Source: a virus. Taken from it: DNA of 27,879 nucleotides. The stretch covers positions 1 to 27,879 of IMG/VR virus record IMGVR_UViG_3300033064_004296. One strand, given 5' to 3'. The notes beneath the pieces were generated by a model. That model had not been told where the DNA came from. It ran no database searches and saw only the letters and a list, made by a program, of their open reading frames with translations. Below, piece after piece: positions 288-19,868 of the stretch (the first letter of the stretch is position 1; every line of letters starts with the position of its first letter). A program made the translations under genes and the position numbers.

Positions 288-1412
288 ATGAATCTAAAGA
301 AAATTTTAGTTGAGCAATTAAGTCCTGAATCTGATTTCGGGAAAATCCTTGCCATTAAAAAAGGAACGGTAGATAAAACAGATATTGAGTTCAGTTCAGA
401 ATACATTAATGACTTTGATGACAAATATGTGTATTTCGATTTTGATGATGCTGAAAATTATTTGAAATATTTTTTGGATCCTGAGTATGCTGAAGATGGG
501 TACGGTATAGAGGACATTGACCAATGGGTATATGCGTTAAATTACGGTTTCCGTGATAATGAATACTTGGATTGGAGTGCCGTTGATGATGAGTGGGAAA
601 GTGGATACCCAGTTGATATATTAAATACAGAAAACAAAGAAAAATTAGATAAGATTATTTTATTATTGAAACCTGATGGTCAGGATTTGATTGAAAAATC
701 AAGCTACGGTACTCGTGTGTTATATAAAGATGCAGAAAAAATAACAGCATTTCTAAAAGGATACGATACCATTAAAAACCCACTTTTGGATGTATACCAC
801 GATGCCATAAATGAATCTCATAGTGTTGCAGCTAGTAAAGATATTGAAGAAGACGCAGAAAAAATGTTAGAACCTTTGGGTTTTGAGTCCGATGGTAGAA
901 ATTTTCATTACTATAAAATTCCTTTATCTAATCTTGCTTTACTATACTCAAGGTATTCAAATAATGTCAACGACGACATAACAACCGTTTTAAGAAAATC
1001 TGCTGATAAACTATTGAAATTCCCATCTACCGACAGCGTTTGGGAGTATTTGTCGGAATCGGAAGATGTTGAGGTGTTTAATCGAGGTTATCAACCAACG
1101 GCCTCTGAAATATTGGATAATGCATTAGAACAGGTTTTGGAAGAATCAAAAGACCTTGAAGAGTATAGAAAAATCTACAACTACATTTTAAAAAATTATG
1201 GGTTTGAAAAAAAACATCGTATTCCAAATGTCGGTACAGATGCAAACTCTAATATTGGTTTTTCGGTTGATTCAGTAGATCCAACAACAAATAAGTTGGA
1301 TGTAAATTTTGAACAAAATTGGAGACGGAAAAAAACAACAATGACCTTTTCAGATTTTATCAATCTATTGAATAATACAAGATTATTCAATTTTGGTGAC
1401 ATCTTCGATTAA
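288..1412 (+). CDS. Unknown phage protein, 374 residues
   Basis: I do not recognise a family. The frame is open from 270, but the first codons encode MFVFIT directly over the TATTTATTA element, so I prefer the ATG at 288, whose product begins MNLKKILVEQLSPES. The protein is acidic, with many Asp/Tyr/Phe residues in the first 120 positions (for example YVYFDFDDAENYLKYF) and a mixed, more helical second half. There is no signal peptide or membrane segment. It is divergent from the CAP gene, with only 36 bases between the two starts. Its stop overlaps the stop of the convergent peptidase gene: the bases TTAA at 1409-1412 contain both. The amphipathic N-terminus resembles those of other structural-region proteins in the window, but a virion role is only a guess. 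Confidence 0.7.
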   Translation: MNLKKILVEQLSPESDFGKILAIKKGTVDKTDIEFSSEYINDFDDKYVYFDFDDAENYLKYFLDPEYAEDGYGIEDIDQWVYALNYGFRDNEYLDWSAVDDEWESGYPVDILNTENKEKLDKIILLLKPDGQDLIEKSSYGTRVLYKDAEKITAFLKGYDTIKNPLLDVYHDAINESHSVAASKDIEEDAEKMLEPLGFESDGRNFHYYKIPLSNLALLYSRYSNNVNDDITTVLRKSADKLLKFPSTDSVWEYLSESEDVEVFNRGYQPTASEILDNALEQVLEESKDLEEYRKIYNYILKNYGFEKKHRIPNVGTDANSNIGFSVDSVDPTTNKLDVNFEQNWRRKKTTMTFSDFINLLNNTRLFNFGDIFD

Positions 1413-2461
1413 TAATCAAGATGTTTCTTTAATACCTCATATAGATCCTGAATTTGATCCCCATCGAAGAAAATCAGATCATCAGAAATTTTATCTTTGA
1501 TAGATAGACCAATCGAGTCAAAAGTCAAAATGTTATCACCAACAACAATAGTTGATTCATCTTCAACATCTTCCTGTTCAGTGTCGTCAATATCGGAAAG
1601 GGAATTATAAGACTTCCAATCATATTTGTATGCTTTGTAGATGTACTCATATTTTTTGTAACCAAGTTTGTTAACCAAGTCCTCAGCCATCCAAATTGAG
1701 TTTTCAACATCCTGTAAAACCACAAACTCCTGATTCGAGTGCATATTGTAGTATCCACAAGAAAAGTTGATACAAGAGAAGTCACCCTTTTGTTTGATTT
1801 GTGATACATCCGTGTATGGGTGAGTCTGTTCTGAAGCCACTGTATCCATCCAAGTCTCAAACGTAGATTTGGCAATTTTGATGAACTCACCTTCATCATC
1901 GTATAATTTAACACCCCAACAAATACGAGTAATCAGGTGATCACCAGGTGCGTCGAATTGAACAGCGTAACCAACATCTTTTAAGAAATCTACATCACAT
2001 CGTTGCGACCCGTGACAACCTGTTTCTTCAGAAACAAACAAACCAATTTTTACTTTCGGAAGGATACGGAGTAACTCTAATGCGATAAAAACACCAGCCT
2101 TGTCATCACCACCAATACCAGTAGGTTGTCCTGACGGTGTATATGATTTTAGAATATCAAACTCAGTAGAATCAAAAGTCTTTCCGTAGGTGAATGGTTT
2201 TGATGAACGTTCTTCTTTAACAACAATTTCAGGAACCATTTCGTGAACAGTATCGGTGTGTGCGATAAACATCGGATAAAATTCTCCATCCATCAATTCT
2301 CCTTTGGTGATGTAAATGTTTTGTAGATCATCACGGTAAAATGAAACACCTGACATATTATCAATTTCAGTGCAAATGTATTCGACGATCTTTTCTTCCT
2401 TGTAGGTTTTAGATGGTACCGATAAAAGTGATTTGAATCTATTGAGTTGCTCTGTTTTCAT
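1409..2461 (-). CDS. Co-catalytic zinc aminopeptidase, M20/M28/M42 type (PepT-like)
   Basis: This is a metallo-exopeptidase of clan MH. All expected metal ligands and catalytic residues are visible in order: HTDT (His68, Asp70), GGDDKAG (Asp119/120), SEETGCHGS (Glu145 as general base, Glu146 as ligand), Asp170 in VQFDAPGD, and His241 in YNMHSNQE. The GGDDKAG and EETG..GS motifs are closest to tripeptidase T and M28/M42 enzymes. About 70 residues separate Asp170 from His241, shorter than the M20 dimerisation lid as I remember it, so the enzyme looks compact. The C-terminal ~70 residues, after position 280, form an acidic extension with no recognised motif. There is no signal peptide, so it should act on peptides in the cytoplasm. 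It lies 46 bases downstream of the ClpC-like gene on the same strand, which suggests it trims peptides released by proteolysis (inference). Confidence 0.85.
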   Translation of the reverse strand: MKTEQLNRFKSLLSVPSKTYKEEKIVEYICTEIDNMSGVSFYRDDLQNIYITKGELMDGEFYPMFIAHTDTVHEMVPEIVVKEERSSKPFTYGKTFDSTEFDILKSYTPSGQPTGIGGDDKAGVFIALELLRILPKVKIGLFVSEETGCHGSQRCDVDFLKDVGYAVQFDAPGDHLITRICWGVKLYDDEGEFIKIAKSTFETWMDTVASEQTHPYTDVSQIKQKGDFSCINFSCGYYNMHSNQEFVVLQDVENSIWMAEDLVNKLGYKKYEYIYKAYKYDWKSYNSLSDIDDTEQEDVEDESTIVVGDNILTFDSIGLSIKDKISDDLIFFDGDQIQDLYEVLKKHLDY

Positions 2462-2507: not shown

Positions 2508-4523
2508 TTATTCATCCCCCAAAACTACTTCTTCCTCTTTTAGAACAAGTTGGTATTCACCTTCAGTCGTGATCCTTTTACGTAGAACTTCTTCTGAGAT
2601 CAAATCTTCAATTTGTTCTTGGATCGCTCTCTTGATAGGACGTGCTCCATACTTCTCATCAAAACCAATCTTTGAAATGTGTGAACGAACTTCGTCATTG
2701 ATGTTGATAGTGTAACCCATTTTGTTGAGACGATCAAGAAGTTTTTGAAGTTCAATATCTACGATCATCTTAATCTCTTCTTCTTTGAGGGGATTAAACA
2801 CTACGATTTCATCGACACGATTAAGGAACTCGGGAGTGAAAAAGTTTTTCAGTTCTTTTTGAAGGACTGACTTCTTAAGTTCTTCGTTATTACCTGATCT
2901 TGAGTTAGTGTCAAAACCAACTCCAGTTCCAAAATCCTGTAGTCTTCTGACACCGATATTCGATGTCATAATAATTAAGGTATTCTTGAAGTTAATTTTT
3001 CGACCAAAGCTGTCAGTAAGGAACCCGTCATCCAACATTTGAAGAAGAAGGTGAAAGATATCTTTATTTGCCTTTTCTACTTCATCAAATAAAACAACAG
3101 AGTAAGGTTTGTTTTTTACTGCTTCGGTGAGTTGTCCACCTTCGTTGTAACCAACGTAACCTGGAGGTGAACCGATCAAACGTGACATAGAGTATTTTTC
3201 TTGATACTCTGACATATCAACTCGGATAAGTGCTTCAGGGTCTCCAAAGATTTCTTCAGCCAATCGTTTTGCCAAGTGGGTTTTACCAACACCAGTAGAT
3301 CCAAGAAAGATGAATGAACCAATAGGTCGGTTAGGATCTTTAATTCCTACACGGTTTCTACGGATTGACTTAGATATTTTACTTACCGCCTCTTTTTGTC
3401 CGATTACGGATTTGCTTAAATTCTTTTCAAGATCAAGAAGAGCCTCTGCTTCATCAGAAGTTAGTTTAGATATTGGGATTTTTGTCATCATAGACACAAC
3501 CTCATAAACCATATCTTCGGTAATAATTTGACGATTATTTTGTTGTTGTGATTCAAACTTTTTCTTTTCTTCTTCAAGTTTTTTGAGGATTTTTTTCTCT
3601 TTGTCACGAAGTTGTGCGGCGTCTTCGTAACGTTGTTGTTTCACAACCAATAGTTTTTCATCTTTAATGTTAATTGATTCCAACTTGAGTTGCTCAATTA
3701 GTTCAGGGAACTTAACGTTAATTTGTGATTTTGCACCAACCTCATCCAAAATGTCAATTGCTTTGTCAGGAAACTCACGGCCAGTGATGTAACGACCTGC
3801 TAATTGAACACAAGCCTCAAGAGCTTTATCTGAGTAGGATACCTTGTGGTGTTTTTCATATTGAAATTTAAGTTGTTTAAGGATTTCCAAAGTTTGTTCA
3901 GGGGTTGATCCGTCAACAATTACTTTTTGGAAACGACGATCAAGTGCCCCGTCTTTTTCAATGTGTTCACGATATTCATCCAAAGTGGTGGCACCAATAC
4001 ATTGAAGTTCACCACGTGCGAGTGCGGGTTTAAAAATGTTGGAAGCGTCGAGTGAACCTGATGAATTACCCGCTCCGATTATAGTGTGGATTTCATCAAT
4101 AAAAACAATAATGTCAGGGTTGTTATGGAGCTCTTCAAGAATGACTTTAAGACGTTCTTCAAATTGTCCACGATATTTTGTACCTGCAACAATTGATGTC
4201 ATATCCAAAGAAACAATGCGTTTTTCGCAAAGATTCTGAGGACAATCTCCTTCAAAAATTTTCATAGCCAAACCCTCAACTATTGCCGTTTTACCGGCGC
4301 CAGGTTCTCCAACGATGATAGGGTTGTTCTTTTTACGACGAGAAAGAATTTGTGCAATTCGTTGAATTTCTTTCTCCCTACCAATGACAGGGTCAAGTTT
4401 TCCTTGTTCTGCCAACTTGATAAGATCTCGTGAAAAGTTATCTAATACAGGTGTAGTTGAACTATTGGGTGTATCTCCCTTTTTTTTCCCTCCTTTATCG
4501 TTTGGGTCTACTGATTCGATCAT
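2508..4523 (-). CDS. clpC-like: ClpC-type AAA+ unfoldase lacking the N-terminal domain
   Basis: This is a two-ring Hsp100 unfoldase of 671 residues. D1 has Walker A GEPGAGKT (72-79), Walker B IIVFIDE (138-144) and an arginine-finger region DRRFQ (195-199). D2 has Walker A GSTGVGKT (408-415), Walker B VVLFDE (476-481), FLNRVDE (566-572) and sensor-2 GARP (626-629). Between them, residues ~285-312 form a short coiled insert with a UVR-like motif ([15 protein letters not shown]), typical of ClpC rather than ClpB or ClpA. The usual N-terminal double Clp repeat is absent: after a 28-residue Lys/Gly-rich leader the protein goes straight into [23 protein letters not shown] at 535-537, in FGTGVGFD, sits where ClpC carries its ClpP-docking loop. 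It probably unfolds proteins for host ClpP; no ClpP gene is in the window. A TTTG-N20-TATCTTTG promoter precedes it. Confidence 0.92.
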
Positions 4524-4697: not shown

Positions 4698-5141
4698 ATG
4701 TTCGGTAGAAAAAAATTTGGAATGGGATACTTTGATATTCTCTTCAATGATTTAAATAATATGATTAATGAACCTTTATTAGTTAAAGGTAGGACAAAAG
4801 TTGAAAGTGGTTCGGACAAAAATGGACAATGGACAAAAGAAACATTTACATCTGTGGATGGATCCTATAGTGTAACAAACATTTTTAGAAACTTAGGTCC
4901 TGTTCTAAATAAATCTCAAAAGACTGAACTTGATGAGATTTCACACTTGAAGTCTCAGTTAGAAACATCGATTGAAGAACAGAATTTTGAAAAGGCGGCA
5001 GAGTTGAGAGATAAGATCAAATCTTTGGATACTAACAAAGAAAAGATTTTAGAGTTACAATCTGAATTAAAGAAGGCTGTTGATCACCAAGATTTTGAGA
5101 AGGCTATAGAACTTCGAGATGAAATCAAGAAATTAAGTTAA
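4698..5141 (+). CDS. Tandem UVR-motif protein, candidate Clp adaptor
   Basis: This is a 147-residue soluble protein. The C-terminal half carries two successive UVR-type motifs, IEEQNFEKAAELRDKIKSL (about 92-110) and VDHQDFEKAIELRDEIKKL (about 128-146), each an Asp/Asn-Phe-Glu-Lys-Ala helix followed by Leu-Arg-Asp. The N-terminal ~70 residues (MFGRKKFGMGYFDILFNDL and onward) are not recognised. UVR motifs are known in UvrB, UvrC, ClpC and McsA, where they mediate protein-protein contacts. The gene is divergent from the ClpC-like gene, whose product also contains a UVR motif, so an adaptor or regulator for that unfoldase is a reasonable inference. No nuclease or kinase motif is visible, so it is not UvrB, UvrC or McsB. 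The start is preceded by an A-rich stretch, and a strong terminator follows the stop directly. Confidence 0.8.
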   Translation: MFGRKKFGMGYFDILFNDLNNMINEPLLVKGRTKVESGSDKNGQWTKETFTSVDGSYSVTNIFRNLGPVLNKSQKTELDEISHLKSQLETSIEEQNFEKAAELRDKIKSLDTNKEKILELQSELKKAVDHQDFEKAIELRDEIKKLS

Positions 5142-5485: not shown

Positions 5486-6232
5486 ATGGAAAGTTTCAAT
5501 AAAATATTAAGTAGTTTTAATGTTCAGGATGAGTTAAATTCAAAAATTTGGATTGAACACAATGGACATTATCATATGAGAGAAGATGTCAGAAAAAGAC
5601 TATTAGATATTGCTGAAGAATTTGTACGGTTTATTGGTATGGATATATTTGTTCAGGATGTTATGATGACGGGATCTTTATCTAATTATAACTGGTCTCA
5701 ATTTTCTGATGTTGATTTACATATTATGTACAATTTTAAGGACTCAAAAGATAAAGAAGAGATCGTAAAAGAACTTTTCAAAATAAAAAAAACATTATTT
5801 AACTCCACACATAATATTAAAGTAAAAGGTTTTGACGTGGAGTTATATGTTCAAGATACTTCAGAACCACACGTTTCGTCAGGAGTTTATTCTGTTCTCT
5901 TCAGTGATTGGATCAACGAACCATCTAAAGATGAGGTGGTAATTGACAGTAAACTTATACAAAAGAAAACAGAGTCTTGGATGGAAAAAATAGATAACCT
6001 TATTGAGGATGTTGAAGATGAATACCTTGAAACTGCTTTAGATTATATTGACCTTTTAAAAGAAAAATTAAAACAATACAGGAACGACGGACTTGAGAGA
6101 GAAGGTGAGTATTCTTATGAAAATTTGGTATTCAAGTTCTTGAGAAGAAACGGATATATACAGAAACTATTTGATTTTACTAACGAATTGGTGGATAAAA
6201 GATTGTCTTTAGAACAAAAAAATATTATATAA
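5486..6232 (+). CDS. DNA polymerase beta-superfamily nucleotidyltransferase
   Basis: This 248-residue protein shows the hallmark of the pol-beta nucleotidyltransferase fold: GS at 63-64 in MMTGSLSNYNWSQFSDVDLH, the metal-binding pair Asp75 and Asp77, and a third Asp117 in GFDVELYV. All three acidic residues are present, so it should be active. These enzymes transfer an NMP to a protein, RNA or small molecule; the substrate here cannot be read from sequence. The C-terminal ~90 residues are helical and charged, with no known domain. An antitoxin-like HEPN partner was not seen next to it, so a toxin-antitoxin role has no support. It sits between KTSC and small virion-region genes and probably belongs to the same transcript as the KTSC gene. 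Confidence 0.8.
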   Translation: MESFNKILSSFNVQDELNSKIWIEHNGHYHMREDVRKRLLDIAEEFVRFIGMDIFVQDVMMTGSLSNYNWSQFSDVDLHIMYNFKDSKDKEEIVKELFKIKKTLFNSTHNIKVKGFDVELYVQDTSEPHVSSGVYSVLFSDWINEPSKDEVVIDSKLIQKKTESWMEKIDNLIEDVEDEYLETALDYIDLLKEKLKQYRNDGLEREGEYSYENLVFKFLRRNGYIQKLFDFTNELVDKRLSLEQKNII

Positions 6233-7709: not shown

Positions 7710-7784
7710 ACAAACAAACACAATTTAGTTTTCGAAGCAGATAACGTTCAATTGAAAGTAACTACTAAGGGTGAAATTTTATGA
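7710..7784 (+). other. In-frame coding-like tail after the TAA of the preceding gene
   Basis: Reading on in the frame of the 6495 gene gives TNKHNLVFEADNVQLKVTTK, then GEIL and TGA at 7782-7784. There is no ATG in this stretch. The tail alternates hydrophobic and polar residues like beta-strands, and its TGA overlaps the ATG of the next gene in the usual phage ATGA arrangement. It is best explained as the original C-terminus cut off by a nonsense change (AAA or CAA to TAA), by readthrough, or by a sequence error. Confidence 0.5.
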
Positions 7785-10318: not shown

Positions 10319-12088
10319 ATGTCAAACCTATCAAGAGAGCAGGCAATACTCGAATACGCAAAATGTGCGAAGAATACCACGTATGCTCTAAAGACATATC
10401 TTCAAACATACGATAATACCCAATCAAAATACGTTCCGTTAGATCTATTTCCTGATCAAATAAGTTTGATCGAGGATTACGATAAATACGAAGAAAACAT
10501 TGCTTTGAAGTATAGACAGGCGGGGGTATCTACTGTTACCTCCGCTTGGGCATCAAAGCGTTTGGTATTTGCAAAAAAAACAAAACCTGAAAAAATCCTG
10601 ATTATTGCCAATAAACAGGACACCGCCATTGAAATGGCAAACAAAATCAGAACATTTGTGGATCAATGGCCTGATTGGATGGGTGTCGGATTTTCTAATG
10701 AGAAAAACGCACAAAAACACTTTAAGTTAAGTAATGGATGTGAGATTAAGGCAGTTGCAACCTCAAAAGATGCCCTCCGTGGATATACACCAACAATCCT
10801 TATTTTTGACGAGGCGGCATATATTGAAGCAGATGAAGACTTTTGGTCGGCTTGTATGGCCTCACTATCAACGGGTGGTAAAGTTATCGTAATTTCAACT
10901 CCAAACGGATTCGATCCGATTTATTACGGGATTTATGAACAAGCAATTCGTGGTATGAACGATTTCAAAATTACAGAGATGTTTTGGTATAGAGATCCTC
11001 GTTATACAAAAGATCTAAAACTACTGAAAGTCAAAGACATTATTCACTATATGTTGAACCGTTCTGATTACAAGGATGAGGAAATTACCTTGAGTTACTC
11101 GGATGTTGAGCCACGTAAGAGAGATTTTGAAGAAATCAAAAAACACTTTAACGATGGGTACAAACCATATTCTTCTTGGTTTGAATCGATGGCCAAGAAA
11201 CTTAAGTTTGATAGAAGAAAGATTGCACAGGAATTAGAGTGTAACTTCTTAGGTTCAGGTGATAGTGTAATACCACCTGATGTTATTGAACGAATGAAAG
11301 ATCAAGATATAATTCCACCTATAAATAAATTTATGGGTGGATCTATTTGGCAGTGGGAAGAACCTGTTGCTGGTCACCGATACATTATGGGTATAGACGT
11401 TTCTAGAGGTGATTCTGAAGACTTTACCACATTCTGTATTATTGATTTTGATGAAAGACACCAAGTGTTAGAATATTTAGGTAAGATACCACCTGATATA
11501 GCGGCTGAAATTGCTATGAAATGGGCAACTATGTATTCAGCGTTTGTTGTTATTGATATAACAGGAGGTATGGGAGTTTCTACTTCAAGAAAAATGCAAG
11601 AACTTGGATATAAAAATCTTTATGTTGATGGTGTGAATATTGCGGACAAGTGGAAATATAATCCCAAAATGGAAGACAAAATTCCTGGTATTAATTTCAA
11701 CTCAAAACGTGTTCAGATTGTTGCCGCTTTTGAAGAGGCTTTACGTCACGGATTCAAGATTCGTTCTTCAAGGATGTTAAATGAACTTAATACTTTTGTT
11801 TATGTTAACGGAAGACCTGACCACCTAAAAGGACAACACGACGACCTTATAATGGCTTGTGCGATGCCAATATATGTTGCTGAAAACTCATTTAGTCTTT
11901 TAGAGAGATCTGAATCACAAACAAAGTCAATGTTGGATAGTTGGACGGTTCAGGAACATCAACCCACAAATTCAGTCAGAGATTTCAATCCTGCATTACC
12001 TGCATCGAATAATCGTGGTGAAAGACCCGGTACGTATAACCCACAACCACAAGATTATGCTAAATACTCTTGGTTGTTTGGAAGATAA
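10319..12088 (+). CDS. terL: Terminase large subunit, gp17-like
   Basis: This is the DNA-packaging motor ATPase and headful nuclease. The N-terminal ATPase has a deviant Walker A: KYRQAGVST at 64-72. The usual P-loop lysine is missing (Val70), and Lys64 sits before the loop, as I recall for lambda gpA. Walker B is ILIFDEAA (160-167), and the coupling motif is VISTPNG (191-197). The C-terminal RNase H-like nuclease has Asp360 in MGIDVSRGD, Asp413 in VVIDITGG and Asp508/509 in GQHDDLIMA. At 589 residues it is close to T4 gp17. The final ~60 residues are a Pro/Asn/Gln-rich tail. It acts on the portal at the prohead vertex; the portal gene follows after a 49-base gap containing a TATTTATTA element. 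There is no Shine-Dalgarno sequence at the ATG. Confidence 0.95.
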   Translation: MSNLSREQAILEYAKCAKNTTYALKTYLQTYDNTQSKYVPLDLFPDQISLIEDYDKYEENIALKYRQAGVSTVTSAWASKRLVFAKKTKPEKILIIANKQDTAIEMANKIRTFVDQWPDWMGVGFSNEKNAQKHFKLSNGCEIKAVATSKDALRGYTPTILIFDEAAYIEADEDFWSACMASLSTGGKVIVISTPNGFDPIYYGIYEQAIRGMNDFKITEMFWYRDPRYTKDLKLLKVKDIIHYMLNRSDYKDEEITLSYSDVEPRKRDFEEIKKHFNDGYKPYSSWFESMAKKLKFDRRKIAQELECNFLGSGDSVIPPDVIERMKDQDIIPPINKFMGGSIWQWEEPVAGHRYIMGIDVSRGDSEDFTTFCIIDFDERHQVLEYLGKIPPDIAAEIAMKWATMYSAFVVIDITGGMGVSTSRKMQELGYKNLYVDGVNIADKWKYNPKMEDKIPGINFNSKRVQIVAAFEEALRHGFKIRSSRMLNELNTFVYVNGRPDHLKGQHDDLIMACAMPIYVAENSFSLLERSESQTKSMLDSWTVQEHQPTNSVRDFNPALPASNNRGERPGTYNPQPQDYAKYSWLFGR

Positions 12089-12137: not shown

Positions 12138-13988
12138 ATGGCGGAAAATAATTTTACAATTTGGCAAAGATTAAGTCAGGTTTTTGGACCGGATTCTACT
12201 TTGGACCAACAATCCCCTATTTACAAGTTTGACAAAAAAGAGCTTTTAAAAACTACAGATAAAACTGAGTTTGAAAGAGAGAAGTTACAGGCACAACAAT
12301 CAATGTACCTTTCCCAACAGTGGACAAAGGTAGAAAACAACTTATATACCCAAGCCGTCTACTATGAACCAACAAGATTGGCATCATATTACGACTATGA
12401 GTCAATGGAGTATACTCCTGAAATTTCAGCAGCACTCGACATTTACGCAGAAGAATCTACAACAACAAATGAAGATGGATTTATATTACAGATTTACTCA
12501 GAATCTAAAAGAATCAAAGGTATCTTGGCGGATTTATTCAATAACAGATTGGATATCAACACTAATTTACCAATGTGGACAAGAAACACTTGTAAGTATG
12601 GTGACAATTTTGTCTACCTCAAATTAGATCCCGAAAAAGGTGTTACGGGTGTACACCAACTACCAAATTTTCAGGTTGAAAGAATGGAAAGAGGTATGCA
12701 GTTTACACCTGGTAGAGGTGCCGTACAAAGTGACAACGATTCGTTGAAGTTTTTATGGAAAGAAAAGAATATGGAGTTCAACACTTGGGAAATCGCACAC
12801 TTTCGTTTATTGGGTGATGATAGAAAACTACCATATGGTACTTCTATGTTAGAAAAAGCTCGTCGTATATGGAAACAACTATTGTTATCTGAAGATGCGA
12901 TGTTGATCTACAGAACATCTAGAGCCCCTGAAAGAAGAGTATTCAAAATTTTTGTTGGTAATATGGACGATAAGGATGTTCAGCCTTATGTAAACCGTGT
13001 TGCCAATCAGTTTAAAAGAGATCAGATTGTTGATCCAAACAATGGTAATGTAGATATGCGTTACAATCAAATGGCGGTTGATCAGGATTACTTTATTCCT
13101 GTTCGTGATCCAAATGCTCCGAACCCAATCGATACTCTACCAGGTGCACAGAATCTATCTGAAATTGCCGACATCGAATACATCCAAAAGAAGTTGTTGA
13201 CTGCTCTTCGTGTCCCTAAGGCATTTTTAGGTTTCGAGGAGGTTGTTGGTGATGGTAAGAATTTGGCATTACAGGATATTAGGTTTGCTCGTACCATTAA
13301 TAGGATTCAAAAATCGATGATTCAAGAATTGAACAAGATTGCGATTATTCACTTGTTTGTTCTTGGGTTTGAAGATGAATTAACGAACTTCACGTTAGGA
13401 TTAACAAATCCATCAACGCAGGCAGATTTGTTGAAGATTGAACATTGGAAAGAAAAGATTTTACTTTACAAAGACGCTGTATCTGATCCAGGAAATGGTA
13501 TACAACCAGTATCTTCATCTTGGGCTAAAAAACATATACTTGGGTTTTCTGATGAAGAAATCAAACTTGATATTCAACAACAGAGAATTGAAAGAGCGGT
13601 TGCTGCTGAACTTGAAAAAACATCGGAGGTTATTACAAGTACGGGATTATTCAGTAATATTGACAAACTATACGGAAACAAAAGTCCTGCGACTGGTCAA
13701 CAACCTGAGGGTGAAGTCACGGAACCAGCAAACACAGGTTTTGAAACTGGAATGGAGGAAACACCTCCGATTGATTTTGGAACTGAACTAGGTGGTGGGA
13801 CTGAAACACCTGGAGTTGGTGGTGGAGAAACCGCTGCGGAAGTAACACCTGAATCTTTCAGAAAAGATGGTATGAATTTAATCATTGAGGATAGTGATAT
13901 CACAGGTACTAAAACATTAGACTTATCTAAAGGAAAGAAGTCAATTCAAGAAATTGAAGGCAAACTCAATGAGTTATTGAATAAGTAA
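12138..13988 (+). CDS. Portal protein, gp20-like
   Basis: This is the dodecameric portal at the unique capsid vertex and the docking site for terminase. The 616-residue protein shows the T4-type portal layout: YYDYESMEYTPEISAALDIY (about 83-102) followed by AEESTT, then WTRNTCKYGDNFVYLKL (about 142-158), a beta-rich stem region, and SEIADIEYIQKKLLTALRVP (about 340-359) leading into AFLGFEE. A helical region with RFARTINRIQKSMIQELNK follows. T4 gp20 is a little over 500 residues; the excess here is mainly a Gly/Pro/Glu/Thr low-complexity stretch at about 515-575 and a short charged C-terminus. It lies between the terminase and an unknown 242-residue gene. The T4 order 17-20-21-22-23 is kept, apart from small inserted genes. 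Confidence 0.92.
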   Translation: MAENNFTIWQRLSQVFGPDSTLDQQSPIYKFDKKELLKTTDKTEFEREKLQAQQSMYLSQQWTKVENNLYTQAVYYEPTRLASYYDYESMEYTPEISAALDIYAEESTTTNEDGFILQIYSESKRIKGILADLFNNRLDINTNLPMWTRNTCKYGDNFVYLKLDPEKGVTGVHQLPNFQVERMERGMQFTPGRGAVQSDNDSLKFLWKEKNMEFNTWEIAHFRLLGDDRKLPYGTSMLEKARRIWKQLLLSEDAMLIYRTSRAPERRVFKIFVGNMDDKDVQPYVNRVANQFKRDQIVDPNNGNVDMRYNQMAVDQDYFIPVRDPNAPNPIDTLPGAQNLSEIADIEYIQKKLLTALRVPKAFLGFEEVVGDGKNLALQDIRFARTINRIQKSMIQELNKIAIIHLFVLGFEDELTNFTLGLTNPSTQADLLKIEHWKEKILLYKDAVSDPGNGIQPVSSSWAKKHILGFSDEEIKLDIQQQRIERAVAAELEKTSEVITSTGLFSNIDKLYGNKSPATGQQPEGEVTEPANTGFETGMEETPPIDFGTELGGGTETPGVGGGETAAEVTPESFRKDGMNLIIEDSDITGTKTLDLSKGKKSIQEIEGKLNELLNK

Positions 13989-14009: not shown

Positions 14010-14738
14010 ATGAAGTCATTTGGTGAAATTAAAACTTCTGTCGAAAAATCCTTAGTAAAAAACTACGGAACAAAAACTTTTAACTCTTTAATGAAAGAGT
14101 TCAAGAAAAACATTTTGGATGATAAGCAAATTTCTGAAATGTATTTTCTATACGATGCCCTATCAAAACCATCTGGTCTCAACAAAGAATATGTTTTGGA
14201 GTATGTGAACGAATCAACTAATGTTTTGAAAGATCTTATTCAAAAAAATACTGAAAAGTTAGAAAAACTTTCTATATGGGTTGATCAGATGATTCAAATT
14301 GATGAAAACGAATACACAAATATCGACACAATTATCTACAACAAATCTGTCAAGGATTTAGATAAAGTTATTGAGTCAAAAAATACAATCAAAAGTATTT
14401 TGATTTCTGAAAAAAAGGAATTAGTGAAAGAATCTGTAAACATTCCATTATCATCGATGATGAAAATTGCATCAAACGTATTCAATGAGAAATACGAAAA
14501 CATTTCAGAACAAGAAAAAAATGAACTAAAGAATCTTTTTAGTTTAACAAAAGAAGAAACCAAACAACAAATTATAGAATTGACTGAAGAAGTAGTTGGC
14601 AAACTTCAAAATAAGATGAATGAAGAAGAAGATTCTGAGGTTAAAGTAATGATTGAAACTACAATTACCAAAGTACAAGAATCAAAACAAGACTTAGTAT
14701 CCCTTTACAAATTGAAGCAACTTTTTTCAGGATTATAA
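14010..14738 (+). CDS. Unknown helical protein between portal and protease, 242 residues
   Basis: No family is recognised. The protein is almost entirely helical and charged, rich in Lys and Glu, with coiled-coil-like stretches (VLKDLIQKNTEKLEKL; EETKQQIIELTEEVVGKLQN; ITKVQESKQDLVSLYKLKQ). It has no signal peptide. In T4 the space between gp20 and gp21 holds the small core proteins gp67 and gp68. Position and composition make an internal core or scaffold component plausible, but there is no sequence evidence for homology. It has its own TATTTATAA element 11 bases upstream. Its last 6 bases overlap the end of the convergent bS21 gene (TTATAA at 14733-14738 holds both stops). Confidence 0.7.
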   Translation: MKSFGEIKTSVEKSLVKNYGTKTFNSLMKEFKKNILDDKQISEMYFLYDALSKPSGLNKEYVLEYVNESTNVLKDLIQKNTEKLEKLSIWVDQMIQIDENEYTNIDTIIYNKSVKDLDKVIESKNTIKSILISEKKELVKESVNIPLSSMMKIASNVFNEKYENISEQEKNELKNLFSLTKEETKQQIIELTEEVVGKLQNKMNEEEDSEVKVMIETTITKVQESKQDLVSLYKLKQLFSGL

Positions 14739-14924
14739 TTCTTGATTGTTTTTCTTTTGTTGATAAATCGCTTTTTGTTTTTTTTCTCTTTTTTCTACTG
14801 ATTTTTTGGTAAACTGCTGACCATCTCTTAGTTTTTCCATTTGTTTTGTTTTGATAACTTTGAACTTATAACGCTTCAAAGCCTTATCAATAGATTCTCC
14901 TTTTTTTACCTGAATTACAATCAT
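14733..14924 (-). CDS. rpsU: Ribosomal protein bS21, phage-encoded
   Basis: This 63-residue protein matches bS21 over its full length: MIVIQVKKGESIDKALKRYK, then a Lys-rich second helix with LRDGQQFTKKSVEKREKKQ, and AIYQQKK near the end. The GESID-AL-K and QQFTKKS-R motifs are those of Bacteroidetes bS21. Bacterial S21 binds the 30S platform near the 16S rRNA 3' end. In Flavobacterium the protein helps sequester the anti-Shine-Dalgarno tail, with Tyr54 in contact as I recall; Tyr54 is present here at exactly that position. It probably replaces or competes with host S21 in ribosomes during infection. It is the only minus-strand gene inside the head block and is convergent with the 14010 gene. 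A TATTTATTT element lies 2 bases before its ATG. No Shine-Dalgarno sequence is present. Confidence 0.92.
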   Translation of the reverse strand: MIVIQVKKGESIDKALKRYKFKVIKTKQMEKLRDGQQFTKKSVEKREKKQKAIYQQKKNNQEL

Positions 14925-14926
14925 AA

Positions 14927-14935
14927 AAATAAATA
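14927..14935 (-). promoter_or_regulatory. TATTTATTT element before rpsU
   Basis: The minus strand reads TATTTATTT, 2 bases before the rpsU ATG at 14924. The start is fixed by homology, so a -10 box here would place transcription initiation inside the gene. This site may be chance or may have another role. Confidence 0.3.
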
Positions 14936-15022
14936 TACCAAAAATATTTAATTTTTTTTTGACAATAAGAACTTATATGATTAAAATTGATTAACAATAA
15001 TAAATGAATAAGTTGAATATTA

Positions 15023-15469
15023 ATGAAAAAAGGAAAGACATCGAAGCTCAATATCTTCGACAGAGCTAAATGTTTATACGGGACTGTAGATTCTAAAGAA
15101 CTAAAATCAATATATATTGTATTACAAACTTGGGTTGAACCAAAAGTTGATTTCGATAATTGGACGAGAGTCACAGGAAATTTAAAAAGACAAATACAAC
15201 ATAGTATGTTAGAAGTTGTTGACGACATATTCTTTGAAAAACACAATATTGTTGATTTGGATCTTCGTACAAGTGGTATACAAATGGACAAAAAAAGTTT
15301 TATGAATTTAGAAATTACTCTCTTCTTAAAAAACAAGAATTGGGATTTTAAATCACCAATTTTAAAAAACCAAATTAAACAAATTATTTCAGCAGTTTAT
15401 TTCGATGACCTATACAACTGCATATATTTTGATTTACATAAGACTAAATCAGAAAAAGTAAAAGAATAA
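15023..15469 (+). CDS. Unknown protein, 148 residues
   Basis: I recognise no family. The product begins MKKGKTSKLNIFDRAKCLYG, is basic at the N-terminus, and continues as a mixed alpha/beta protein (IYIVLQTWVEPKVDFDNW; IVDLDLRTSGIQMDKKSFMN). No membrane segment or catalytic motif is visible. It is divergent from rpsU across a 98-base AT-rich gap, in which I see no convincing promoter on the plus strand. It lies 22 bases upstream of the prohead protease gene, which has its own TATTTATTG element. The position suggests a head-assembly function, but nothing in the sequence confirms it. Confidence 0.7.
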   Translation: MKKGKTSKLNIFDRAKCLYGTVDSKELKSIYIVLQTWVEPKVDFDNWTRVTGNLKRQIQHSMLEVVDDIFFEKHNIVDLDLRTSGIQMDKKSFMNLEITLFLKNKNWDFKSPILKNQIKQIISAVYFDDLYNCIYFDLHKTKSEKVKE

Positions 15470-15491: not shown

Positions 15492-16202
15492 ATGAAAATA
15501 TTAGGTCCAAACGAACAGGGTAAAGGAATTCTAGTGGAATGGGATGCAGGATATGTGTCACCAACAGATAGTAGAAACGTTGCAATGATCAAAGAATCAT
15601 ACGGTCAATTGGAACATTCAAAACCTTTTGAGTTTTATGCCGTTTTACAAAAATATGGAACACCTAACAGAAATGGACGTGTGTACCCTGAAAGAATACT
15701 TAAAAGAGAAGCTGACAATTACAAAAAGGCAATCCAAAAAGGTTTATCTATTTCCGAATTAAATCACCCTGAATCATCTCTAATTGACTTAGAGAGGGTT
15801 TCTCACCTTATTACAGAGGTATGGTGGGAAGGTCACGTTTTGATGGGTAAATTGAAACTATTGACCACACCAGGGTTCCACGAAAGAGGTATCGTATCAT
15901 CACCTGGTGATATCGCAGCTAACCTTATGAGACAAGGTGTTACTATGGGTGTGTCTTCAAGAGGTGTAGGATCACTCGTTAAAAAGGGGGAACAAAATGA
16001 AGTTCAAGATGATTTTGAACTTATCTGTTTTGATTTGGTATCATCTCCATCTACTCCAGGTGCATATCTTTTCTTGGATGAAAAAGATAGAACAAGTTAT
16101 GAGGAGAATATTGAAGAAGAAACAAAGATGAGAGTTGAAAAACAAGAAACCAACAAGTCTCTTGACTTGATGAGAAAGCTCACCGATTATTTAGGACATT
16201 AA
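15492..16202 (+). CDS. Prohead core serine protease, gp21-like
   Basis: This is the maturation protease that cleaves scaffold and capsid proteins inside the prohead, of the herpes-assemblin/T4 gp21 fold. Visible motifs are NGRVYPERIL (61-70), ISELNHPESS with candidate catalytic His92 (87-96), VTMGVSSRGVGS with candidate nucleophile Ser155 or Ser156 (150-161), and ELICFDLVSSPSTPGA (176-191), the conserved late strand with Asp181. At 236 residues it is close to T4 gp21. After about residue 195 comes a charged helical tail, perhaps self-cleaved. It precedes the scaffold and capsid genes, as in T4. Likely target sites (I-x-E followed by Ala) can be seen in the capsid protein and in the 20220 gene product. 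Confidence 0.92.
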   Translation: MKILGPNEQGKGILVEWDAGYVSPTDSRNVAMIKESYGQLEHSKPFEFYAVLQKYGTPNRNGRVYPERILKREADNYKKAIQKGLSISELNHPESSLIDLERVSHLITEVWWEGHVLMGKLKLLTTPGFHERGIVSSPGDIAANLMRQGVTMGVSSRGVGSLVKKGEQNEVQDDFELICFDLVSSPSTPGAYLFLDEKDRTSYEENIEEETKMRVEKQETNKSLDLMRKLTDYLGH

Positions 16203-16556: not shown

Positions 16557-18017
16557 ATGGCAAACGAAAAAAAATCCTTAGTTGAGGAGGCACTTTTACA
16601 AATGAAAAATTTGGAAGAAGCCGTAACAGAAAATGCAAAAGGAATACTTGCTTCTACAATGAAGCAAGAAATCAGCGAACTAGTAAAAGAATCTTTATCT
16701 CTTAAAGAAGATGAGGTTGATGTTGAAATGTCCGATATAAAGTCAATGTCTGAACAAGATATGGATGATATGGAAGACGAAACGGAAGATGAACTTGAGA
16801 TGGACAATATGGACATCGATATGGATTCTGATGAAGAGTCTGATATGGAAGACGAAATGGGTATGGATTTACCCGATGAGTTTGAAGTTGATGATGATGA
16901 AGAAGTTCTTTTACCTCTTGATTTAACAGGAGCGTCTGACGAAGAAATACTTAAAGTTTTCAAAGCTATGGGAGAAGATGATGGTATCATCGTAACCAAA
17001 GATGGTGAGAATATTCATCTAAAAGATGAGAATGATGGTGTCGAATACCAAATTCAAATGGAAGGTGATGAAGATATGGAAGATATGGATATAGAAGAAA
17101 CAATTGAAGAAATGGATGATATGGATGAAATTGTTTACGAAATTGAAATGGAAGACGACGATGAAGAAGAAGAGGAAGTTGAAGAAGATGAGCATATGAA
17201 CGAAGATTCAATGACCGTTAAACCTAAAGGAGAAGGATTTGGTAAGGCCGGTTCAGGTATGTCCAAGACTTCTGTAAATACTAAAGGTTTTAACGGAAAA
17301 ATGAAATCAGGTAATAAAACAATGGGTATGAACCTAAAACCAAAAAAATTCGAATTCACTGAAGAAGAAGAAACGGTAGAGGGAGATTACGGTATGAACA
17401 AAGGTAATATGTCTAAGTCTCGTAGAGATTACGAAACTACTGAAGGACAACACGGAGGTAACAAAGGTGATATGTCTAAGTCTCGTAGAGATTACGAAAC
17501 GAAAGAAGAAGAAACCACAGAAGCTTCTAGAACTTTAGGAAACGGTTCTATGAATGATCCAAGAAGAAAAGGGTTACCTAAGAAAAAAGTTCGTACTGCA
17601 CCATTAACAAACGAAAGTGAGTTAAAATCTGAAATAAATTCATTGAGATCTAAAAATGACGAATACAGAAAAGCATTAAACATCTTTAGAGATAAGTTAA
17701 ATGAAGTTGCTGTATTCAACTCAAATTTAGCATACACTGTTCGTTTGTTCACAGAACATTCTACAACAAAACAAGAAAAAATTAACATCTTGAAGAGGTT
17801 CGATTCTGTTGAAACTATTAAAGAATCTAAAACTCTATATAAAACAATTAGAGAAGATTTGGGAACTAAAACAAATTCTACTATCACTGAATCAGTTGAA
17901 AGTAAAATTCAAAAGTCTCCAACTAAAGGTTCTGCAACAAATTTGATTGAATCAAAGACATATGAAAATCCCCAATTTATGAGAATGAAGGATTTGATGT
18001 CAAAAATTAATAAATAA
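16557..18017 (+). CDS. Acidic prohead scaffold/core protein (gp22 position)
   Basis: This 486-residue protein lies between protease and major capsid protein, exactly where T4 has its scaffold gp22. The first ~55 residues are helical (SLVEEALLQMKNLEEAVTEN). Residues ~55-220 are extremely acidic Asp/Glu/Met-rich, with one folded-looking island near 120-165 (LPLDLTGASDEEILKVF). Residues ~220-350 are Gly/Lys/Ser-rich and contain two near-identical 41-base DNA repeats encoding NKG(N/D)MSKSRRDYET. The last ~130 residues form a coiled coil plus a short basic tail. High acidity and coiled coil are standard for phage scaffolds. The assignment rests on position and composition, not on sequence homology. 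Expected fate: cleavage by the protease and exit before DNA packaging. Confidence 0.75.
   Translation: MANEKKSLVEEALLQMKNLEEAVTENAKGILASTMKQEISELVKESLSLKEDEVDVEMSDIKSMSEQDMDDMEDETEDELEMDNMDIDMDSDEESDMEDEMGMDLPDEFEVDDDEEVLLPLDLTGASDEEILKVFKAMGEDDGIIVTKDGENIHLKDENDGVEYQIQMEGDEDMEDMDIEETIEEMDDMDEIVYEIEMEDDDEEEEEVEEDEHMNEDSMTVKPKGEGFGKAGSGMSKTSVNTKGFNGKMKSGNKTMGMNLKPKKFEFTEEEETVEGDYGMNKGNMSKSRRDYETTEGQHGGNKGDMSKSRRDYETKEEETTEASRTLGNGSMNDPRRKGLPKKKVRTAPLTNESELKSEINSLRSKNDEYRKALNIFRDKLNEVAVFNSNLAYTVRLFTEHSTTKQEKINILKRFDSVETIKESKTLYKTIREDLGTKTNSTITESVESKIQKSPTKGSATNLIESKTYENPQFMRMKDLMSKINK
17397..17500 (+). repeat. Two 41-base direct repeats inside the scaffold gene
   Basis: Copies at 17397-17437 and 17460-17500 differ at one base and are offset by 63 bases (21 codons), so the reading frame is kept. 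They encode NKGNMSKSRRDYET and NKGDMSKSRRDYET. The near-identity at DNA level suggests a recent duplication. Confidence 0.9.
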
Positions 18018-18041: not shown

Positions 18042-19868
18042 ATGGGAGCATTATTAGAATCAGGTCTAGTTGGTAACATCGGTCTTAAGCACCTTAAGGT
18101 TATCAAAGAAGACACAATCAACAAATGGGACAAGCTAGGTTTCTTGGACGGACTAAAAGGTCACGTAAGAGAAAACATCGCACAATTGTACGAAAACCAA
18201 GCGTCTCACTTAATAAACGAAGCTGCATCGACTGACTCATCAGGGTCATTTGAAACTGTAGTCTTCCCTATCGTTAGAAGAGTATTCTCTAAATTATTGG
18301 CTAACGATATAGTATCAGTACAAGCTATGAACCTACCTATCGGTAAGTTGTTCTACTTTGTACCTAAAATTCAGCAGTACGTTGAACCAGACTTTAACCA
18401 ACACTATGCACCAATCGGTTCACCAGAAGCGGTTGATTCAGGAGAGAACAACGTTAACCAAGGTTACACTTTAGCGACTGGAGCATACGCTAAAAACCTT
18501 TACGACTTGTTCTACGAAGGTAACGAAGCAGCTTTGAATCCTCCAGGATTATTTGACTACTCTAAGGGTCAATTCTCTGCTGTTACCATCGGTGCTCAAA
18601 CTGTACAGTGGGACGGAGATTACTTGGTTCCAACTCTTTACACAGCAGCAGGTAGTCCATATAGAAAAGTTCTTATTCAACTTTCAGGTTTTTCTAATAA
18701 CGGATCTTATGGTAAATTGATGGGTCCCGACGGAAACACAGTTGACTCAGAAGCATTCTTGTCAGATTTAACAATTACTACACCAGCAACTTCCGAGTTC
18801 TCAGGGTTTTCTAACAGTATAACATCACCTTTGTTGTTTAGAGTTGTAACTCAGAAATACGGTAAGGGTATAGTTCAATACGGTGGTCAATCACAACCAG
18901 CATTTGGTTCTACGAACACTGCTAACGGTGGTGCTTACGAGAACATCTGTGATAGTAACGGAATCATCTTCTTGGAAGTTGACTTACAAGTTCCTTGTTC
19001 AATCGGAGCAGAATCATTGGATGGTTACTCTGGTTATTCAATTAGTTCTGACGCAACAATCAACGATCAGTTTAATGGAACTTACAGAATCTATGCAGAT
19101 TTAGAATTTGAAGATAGAATTGGTGAAGTTTCTTTCGACCTTGAGTCAGTAACAGTATCTGTTTCTGAAAGAAAGTTGAGAGCACAATGGTCACCTGAAT
19201 TAGCTCAAGACGTGGCTGCATTCCACAACATCGACGCTGAAGCTGAATTGACAGCTTTATTGTCTGAACAAGTGGCAGCAGAAATTGACCGCGAAATCTT
19301 GAGAGACTTGAGAAAAGGAGCAGCTTGGAACCTACGTTGGGATTACAACGGATGGAAGAGAGGAACTACTGCAAATCCATTAACTCAATACACTCAGAAG
19401 GATTGGAACCAAACGTTGATCACAGCAATCAACCAAATTTCAGCTCAAATCCACAAGTCAACTCTTAGAGGTGGCGCTAACTGGATTGTAGTTTCTTCTG
19501 AAATCAGTGCAATCTTTGATGACTTGGAGTACTTCCACGTTTCAAACGCAGCACCTGAGCAAGACCAGTACAATATGGGTATCGAAAGAGTTGGTACTTT
19601 AGCTGGTAGATATCAGGTATACCGTGACCCATACTTCCCACCAAATACGGTGTTGTTAGGTCATAAAGGTTCATCTTTATTGGATACAGGTTATGTGTAC
19701 GCACCATACGTACCTCTACAATTGACTCCAACAATGTACAACCCATTCAACTTTACCCCAATTAAGGGTATTATGACACGTTACGCTAAGAAAATGGTGA
19801 ACAACCGTTTCTACGGACGTATCACAGTTGATGGTGTAAGAACATTCGACTTGAGAGAATTGAGATAA
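18042..19868 (+). CDS. Major capsid protein, gp23-like
   Basis: This is the HK97-fold shell protein, 608 residues. T4-type landmarks are an N-terminal propeptide ending at HLINE|AASTDSSG (predicted protease cut after Glu60, compared with the LTE|AEI site of T4 gp23), FPIVRRVFSKLLANDIVSVQ (about 75-94) with PIGKLFYF, RKLRAQWSPELAQDVAAFHN (about 377-396), then DAEAEL, and near the end LAGRYQVYRDPYF, VYAPYVPLQLTP and a TRYAK motif. Between the propeptide cut and the RKLRAQW motif it has roughly 115 residues more than T4 gp23, in a Gly/Ser/Thr/Asn-rich beta-like region (about 180-340). This suggests an enlarged surface insertion domain. It follows the scaffold gene by 24 bases, probably on the same transcript, and is closed by a strong terminator. 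The start has no Shine-Dalgarno sequence. Confidence 0.96.
   Translation: MGALLESGLVGNIGLKHLKVIKEDTINKWDKLGFLDGLKGHVRENIAQLYENQASHLINEAASTDSSGSFETVVFPIVRRVFSKLLANDIVSVQAMNLPIGKLFYFVPKIQQYVEPDFNQHYAPIGSPEAVDSGENNVNQGYTLATGAYAKNLYDLFYEGNEAALNPPGLFDYSKGQFSAVTIGAQTVQWDGDYLVPTLYTAAGSPYRKVLIQLSGFSNNGSYGKLMGPDGNTVDSEAFLSDLTITTPATSEFSGFSNSITSPLLFRVVTQKYGKGIVQYGGQSQPAFGSTNTANGGAYENICDSNGIIFLEVDLQVPCSIGAESLDGYSGYSISSDATINDQFNGTYRIYADLEFEDRIGEVSFDLESVTVSVSERKLRAQWSPELAQDVAAFHNIDAEAELTALLSEQVAAEIDREILRDLRKGAAWNLRWDYNGWKRGTTANPLTQYTQKDWNQTLITAINQISAQIHKSTLRGGANWIVVSSEISAIFDDLEYFHVSNAAPEQDQYNMGIERVGTLAGRYQVYRDPYFPPNTVLLGHKGSSLLDTGYVYAPYVPLQLTPTMYNPFNFTPIKGIMTRYAKKMVNNRFYGRITVDGVRTFDLRELR

Follow-up and report, generated by a model that had tools for sequence, protein, structure and literature searches.

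The window analyzed here, the whole 27.9-kb virus contig IMGVR_UViG_3300033064_004296 (27,879 nucleotides), encodes a ribosomal protein bS21 (14733-14924, minus strand) within its head genes; genome-level statements cover this fragment and its relatives. The arrangement, and the inference connecting Tyr54 of such proteins to the anti-Shine-Dalgarno (anti-SD) sequence, are already published for Bacteroidetes phages, and the window is a further such case. What we add is that, judged by computed pairing, nearly all viral bS21 copies lack the strong SD leader that switches the Flavobacterium-like host copy. Phage bS21 thus appears to keep the residue that mediates repression but not the mRNA element that receives it, and its gene seems to stand outside the control that the protein itself should exert. 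With somewhat better than even confidence, we read the window gene as coding for a late-made, functional bS21 paralog that would sequester the anti-SD in a T4-like Bacteroidota myovirus.

The bS21 protein and position 54

The open reading frame (ORF) translates to MIVIQVKKGESIDKALKRYKFKVIKTKQMEKLRDGQQFTKKSVEKREKKQKAIYQQKKNNQEL, of 63 residues with Y at position 54, and matches to Pfam PF01165 (43.9 bits; cut-off, 27) and NCBIfam TIGR00030 (36.5; cut-off, 28.95) place it in the family of bS21, which phages carry more often than any other ribosomal protein. By sequence, its top two hits in the PDB are 9i5v (E 1e-11) and the Flavobacterium johnsoniae ribosome 7jil (E 2e-10), and residues 1 to 57 align with residues 1 to 57 of both with no gaps, so that phage Y54 corresponds to F. 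johnsoniae Y54. A first-pass annotation of the window had called a phage bS21 with Tyr54 and proposed aligning it with Flavobacteriia bS21; the family matches and the F. johnsoniae register bear out the call.

Across 81 distinct phage proteins, position 54 is Y in 78, H in two, and F in one, and so is aromatic in all 81. Conservation was counted for bS21 residues generally, position 54 being the one examined as a contact of the 16S tail. Residues K20, K22, K40, R46, K51, and A52, together with position 54, are kept between phage and host proteins, whereas positions 21, 23, 24, 27, and 28 are almost completely different (F23, G27, and T28 in hosts; V23, K27, and Q28 in the phage). This pattern would suit a second explanation, possible although we doubt it, in which phage bS21 replaces that of the host and the divergent N-terminal half of the phage protein, lying close to the mRNA path, favors late phage mRNAs, with SD sequences and autoregulation being irrelevant; the same divergent region is reported by Chen et al. 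(PMC9723584). However, apart from a TATTTAT box (see below), which probably lies in or before the mRNA start, no sequence specific to phage leaders was found for a changed bS21 to recognize. It is unlikely that the phage copy only supplies bS21 after late host shut-off, with no regulatory consequence, as dosage of this kind leaves unexplained why sharp, phage-diagnostic residues are kept over a deep clade.

Window-type bS21 genes lie between the portal and protease genes in many independent contigs. For the window, this conserved synteny refutes the idea, to which we give practically no credence, that the contig was misassigned and its "phage" bS21 is bacterial. Misassignment is likely for one look-alike (L202), which was first counted as viral and then dropped; its neighbors include SAVED, an integrase, and a type I restriction gene, its leader has TGAGATG as bacterial ones do, and it is most likely a bacterial rpsU, the gene for host bS21. 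A search of INPHARED with bS21 matched only five cultured-phage records, none with a named host.

SD use in the window

SD use was scored as the computed pairing, in kcal/mol, between the 16S tail and the final 22 bases of each leader. The 24 window genes have a median of -1.5 kcal/mol, with one at or below -6, and the same model gives medians of -5.9 kcal/mol for T4 (11 of 22 genes at or below -6) and -1.7 kcal/mol for Flavobacterium phage immuto (0 of 20). The window bS21 leader (aaattaaatatttttggtatatttattttt) pairs at -2.9 kcal/mol with the canonical tail and at -1.8 with the Chryseobacterium-type 16S tail. The window genes therefore use no SD, as is expected of a Bacteroidota phage and as the first-pass annotation had said of their starts. 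That annotation had named normal SD use elsewhere in the phage as counterevidence, and none was seen: 302 longer ORFs of related contigs have a median of -2.0 kcal/mol, with 2.3% at or below -8. Only one window gene, starting at 7781 on the plus strand, has a leader with a sizeable resemblance to an SD (aagggtga, -8.5 kcal/mol).

Phage and host bS21 leaders

The SD-less rule holds for the phage copy, but the annotation missed the exception on the host side, rpsU, which provides the most informative comparison. As described by McNutt et al. 2023 (PMC9976891), rpsU is typically the only Flavobacteriaceae gene with an extended SD, and experiments in F. johnsoniae established that this gene is autoregulated, by way of its extended SD, by ribosomes lacking bS21 and that Y54A derepresses it. 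Our host set comprises 80 rpsU genes (42 distinct), almost all of them in records that carry the name of Flavobacterium or of another member of the Flavobacteriaceae, and for all 80 leaders (gagaggaggtg and variants) the pairing falls between -17.6 and -24.8 kcal/mol. Viral bS21 genes were gathered in three scans, and the 84 distinct leaders scored have a median of only -1.35 kcal/mol, 82 of them being weaker than -8; an extended SD (pairing below -13 kcal/mol) is present in 0 of 84, the window included. A mock window further upstream of the phage genes gives a similar median (-1.6 kcal/mol), and with the alternative Chryseobacterium tail none of the 84 pairs below -6. The contrast between phage and host leaders holds against Flavobacteriaceae. 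An analysis of phage bS21 leaders was found in neither PMC9723584 nor PMC9976891, as far as these papers were searched, nor one of promoter boxes in PMC9723584, and we found no leader analysis published in the open-access literature, subscription papers being outside the search.

The 82 leaders cannot be counted as independent cases because the phage bS21 proteins form one group, albeit in a weakly resolved tree (64 columns), and the SD-free state of the phage leaders probably reflects one or a few evolutionary events. There is also an SD-bearing subclade: in three contigs (L126:6001, L127:1377, and L131:4521, all plus strand), which have the same synteny and between them two distinct bS21 proteins and two distinct leaders, the bS21 leader AAAAGGAGGA pairs at -12.2 kcal/mol. 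No other real gene in these contigs has a strong SD, a hit at -12.8 being judged a spurious antisense ORF, and bS21 is by this computed measure the single SD-bearing gene, as it is in hosts. Because the subclade's proteins nest within the otherwise SD-free phage group, the SD would have been gained there or, less simply, retained.

Two or three copies of the bS21 gene are present in some Bacteroidota genomes; one copy carries an extended SD and the rest do not (L232, L268, and L269 in genome G120; L240 and L270 in G200; L266 and L279 in G105). L232 is an SD-free bacterial copy with the phage-like residues V23, K27, and Q28, and it adjoins an NYN-LOTUS gene and an ECF-like sigma factor.

A box shared with the head genes

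The heptamer TATTTAT occurs 15 times in the window, on both strands, and 9 of the 15 lie no more than 60 nt upstream of one of the 24 genes on the coding strand, where a first-order model predicts 1.0. Among the distinct leaders of relatives, it is present before the protease (67/67), the 242-aa gene (59/59), the scaffold-position gene (35/35), and the portal gene (48/64), as well as in 57 of 84 bS21 leaders; TATTTGT is in 18 of the latter, and the two forms may overlap (backgrounds per 60 nt are 0.027 and 0.014). TATTTAT is absent before the major capsid protein (MCP) gene (0/49) and rare before the 148-aa neighbor of bS21 (3/75); these two instead have AATAAAC in 30 of 49 and 53 of 75 leaders, respectively. 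The bS21 gene has, then, its own opposite-strand copy of the box common to the portal, protease, and scaffold genes. The Bacteroidota promoter element has the consensus TAnnTTTG, and we infer from the resemblance that TATTTAT is a related, putative promoter box; a head-gene box of its own would explain late co-expression of bS21 without an operon. In the window the box spans -11 to -5 relative to the bS21 start, and in most relatives it is found near -24. Only 4 nt separate its end from the start codon in the clade to which the window belongs, so the bS21 mRNA of that clade may be nearly leaderless.

A proposed role for phage bS21

We propose that the TATTTAT box would act as a late promoter, with bS21 made along with the head genes, and that the protein would enter host 30S subunits, where Tyr54 would keep the 16S tail in its pocket and the anti-SD hidden; ribosomes with phage bS21 would then remain well matched to late phage mRNAs, which lack an SD. 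A late-made bS21 that keeps Tyr54 and so preserves anti-SD occlusion was also the suggestion of the first-pass annotation; it fits all of the findings but is not new, since Chen et al. 2022 (PMC9723584) report late transcription of phage bS21 with head genes and propose that the protein keeps the anti-SD stacked.

The leaders point to a possible further consequence. Ribosomes lacking bS21 stimulate Flavobacteriaceae rpsU through its extended SD, so phage bS21, by filling such ribosomes, should hold rpsU low, while the SD-free phage gene would be translated without an SD and outside the host feedback loop; in this way the host's own feedback would lead to phage bS21 taking the place of the host copy. 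On this proposal, the aromatic residue at position 54 would turn down host rpsU, the SD-less phage mRNA would be immune, and the SD-bearing subclade would instead tie bS21 synthesis to bS21-depleted ribosomes. We put it forward tentatively, at well short of even confidence, because the SD-free state may simply be what these phages have by default. McNutt et al. speculate that rpsU autoregulation is a counter-defense against phage bS21 (PMC9976891).

Several observations weigh against these proposals. Every gene in these phages lacks an SD by default, so the lack of one at bS21 need not have been selected. In one phage subclade, that of L126, L127, and L131, bS21 is preceded by an SD. The bS21 of a Pelagibacter phage nearly abolished translation in Escherichia coli ribosomes (PMC6375957), which makes a poisoning role conceivable. 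Lastly, an extended canonical SD (below -13 kcal/mol) is present in only 38 of 67 bS21 genes of a phylum-wide Bacteroidota sample; six further genes have an alternative SD (about -11.9 kcal/mol), and most of the remainder, second copies included, appear SD-free. We had at first read many bacterial rpsU genes as having no SD at all; allowing for the alternative Chryseobacterium anti-SD corrected this.

The phylum-wide sample raises the prospect, which we find rather doubtful, that the SD-free state did not arise as an escape: the phages may instead infect lineages in which rpsU is without an extended SD, or have acquired the gene from such a lineage. In its favor, 26 of the 67 bacterial genes (SD-free second copies included) pair weakly (at or above -8 kcal/mol) with the canonical tail, and two SD-free bacterial copies sit among the phage proteins in the tree. 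However, at least 6 of those 26 have TGAGATG in the leader, which fits the alternative Chryseobacterium anti-SD, none of the 84 phage leaders contains TGAGA, and most bS21-encoding phages are placed on Flavobacteriia by Chen et al. (PMC9723584).

Bacteroidota hosts offer a defined bS21 switch together with its assay (rpsU'-gfp, Y54A, and a depletion strain), and the combination of a kept protein face and an absent SD operator makes the vague idea that a phage takes over the ribosome testable in a laboratory strain. The question that results is whether phage bS21 represses host rpsU yet escapes the same control.

Gene order and neighboring genes

The T4-type head block runs TerL, portal, 242-aa gene, antisense bS21, 148-aa gene, protease, 68-aa gene, 486-aa gene, and MCP (Table 1), and bS21 lies opposite to TerL, portal, protease, and MCP; the first-pass annotation had observed its place in a late head block and its opposite strand.

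Table 1. Features of the head block and the bS21 locus in the window
Feature	Coordinates	Strand	Remarks
Terminase large subunit (TerL)	10319..12088	+	
Portal protein, T4 gp20 type	12138..13988	+	
242-aa hypothetical gene, convergent with bS21	14010..14738	+	6-bp overlap between its 3' end and the bS21 stop
Phage bS21 gene, 63 aa, Tyr54	14733..14924	-	Family matches, alignment; 43 close viral relatives
bS21 leader, 30 nt, without SD, aaattaaatatttttggtatatttattttt	14925..14954	-	
TATTTAT box, putative promoter box common to head genes	14929..14935	-	Putative function
148-aa divergent neighbor of bS21, without family match	15023..15469	+	
Head maturation protease, T4 gp21 type	15492..16202	+	
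486-aa protein in scaffold (gp22) position	16557..18017	+	Assigned by position
Major capsid protein (MCP), gp23 type	18042..19868	+	Relatives include Flavobacterium phage immuto, 41% identity

The 148-aa gene adjoins bS21 in about 80 distinct forms, and its family has the strongly conserved motifs MKKGKT, GTVDS, LDLRTSGI, and SFMNLEITLF; its leader class (AATAAAC in relatives) is common to MCP and not to bS21. An AlphaFold model predicts a confident alpha/beta fold (pLDDT 90, pTM 0.85), for which there is no PDB match at E <= 0.001 and one match among viral models, phage A0A8S5L9A5 (TM 0.80), with no function attached; explaining the bS21 system through the fold of this neighbor thus led nowhere.

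Outside the head block, an AAA+ unfoldase (2508-4523, minus strand) is ClpA/ClpB/ClpC-like, without the N-terminal domain, and has a VGF motif that we take to resemble the ClpP-binding loop. It adjoins a 147-aa McsA-like protein with two UVR motifs (4698-5141, plus strand), and the two could be a candidate pair for phage-directed proteolysis; McNutt et al. speculate on a phage protease acting against host bS21 (PMC9976891). A relative of PepT/M42-like metallopeptidases (phrog_4191) is encoded at 1409-2461 (minus strand), and the product of 5486-6232 (plus strand) has a weak match, below the cut-off, to the nucleotidyltransferase palm domain PF22600 and a good one to phrog_36119 (function unknown).

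Comparison with known systems

The closest counterparts are the Bacteroidetes phages of Chen et al. 2022 (PMC9723584), which have genomes of about 293-331 kb with no integrase and an antisense bS21 in the head block, with Tyr54 in 54 of 61 phages and an aromatic residue in all. Like the window, they have antisense bS21 between two hypothetical genes in a TerL/portal/protease/MCP block, Tyr54, and predicted Flavobacteriia-like hosts, and we found no difference in kind. The 148-aa gene holds the position of their "bS21_CN" (fam498), the conserved opposite-strand neighbor of bS21, the comparison being one of position. In T4, gp67 and gp68 occupy the place held here by bS21 and its neighbors. Flavobacterium phage vB_FspM_immuto (MW353176) has a related MCP (41% identity), the same head gene order, and SD-less leaders; neither an antisense bS21 nor a relative of the 148-aa neighbor was found in it. 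Pelagibacter phage HTVC008M likewise encodes a viral bS21, which enters E. coli 70S ribosomes (PMC6375957), but its host is alphaproteobacterial, without anti-SD sequestration of the Bacteroidota type. F. johnsoniae bS21 resembles the phage protein in its gapless alignment over 57 residues and in Tyr54, and differs in having F23, G27, and T28 where the phage has V23, K27, and Q28; its gene, rpsU, has an extended SD and autoregulation, whereas the phage gene has no SD.
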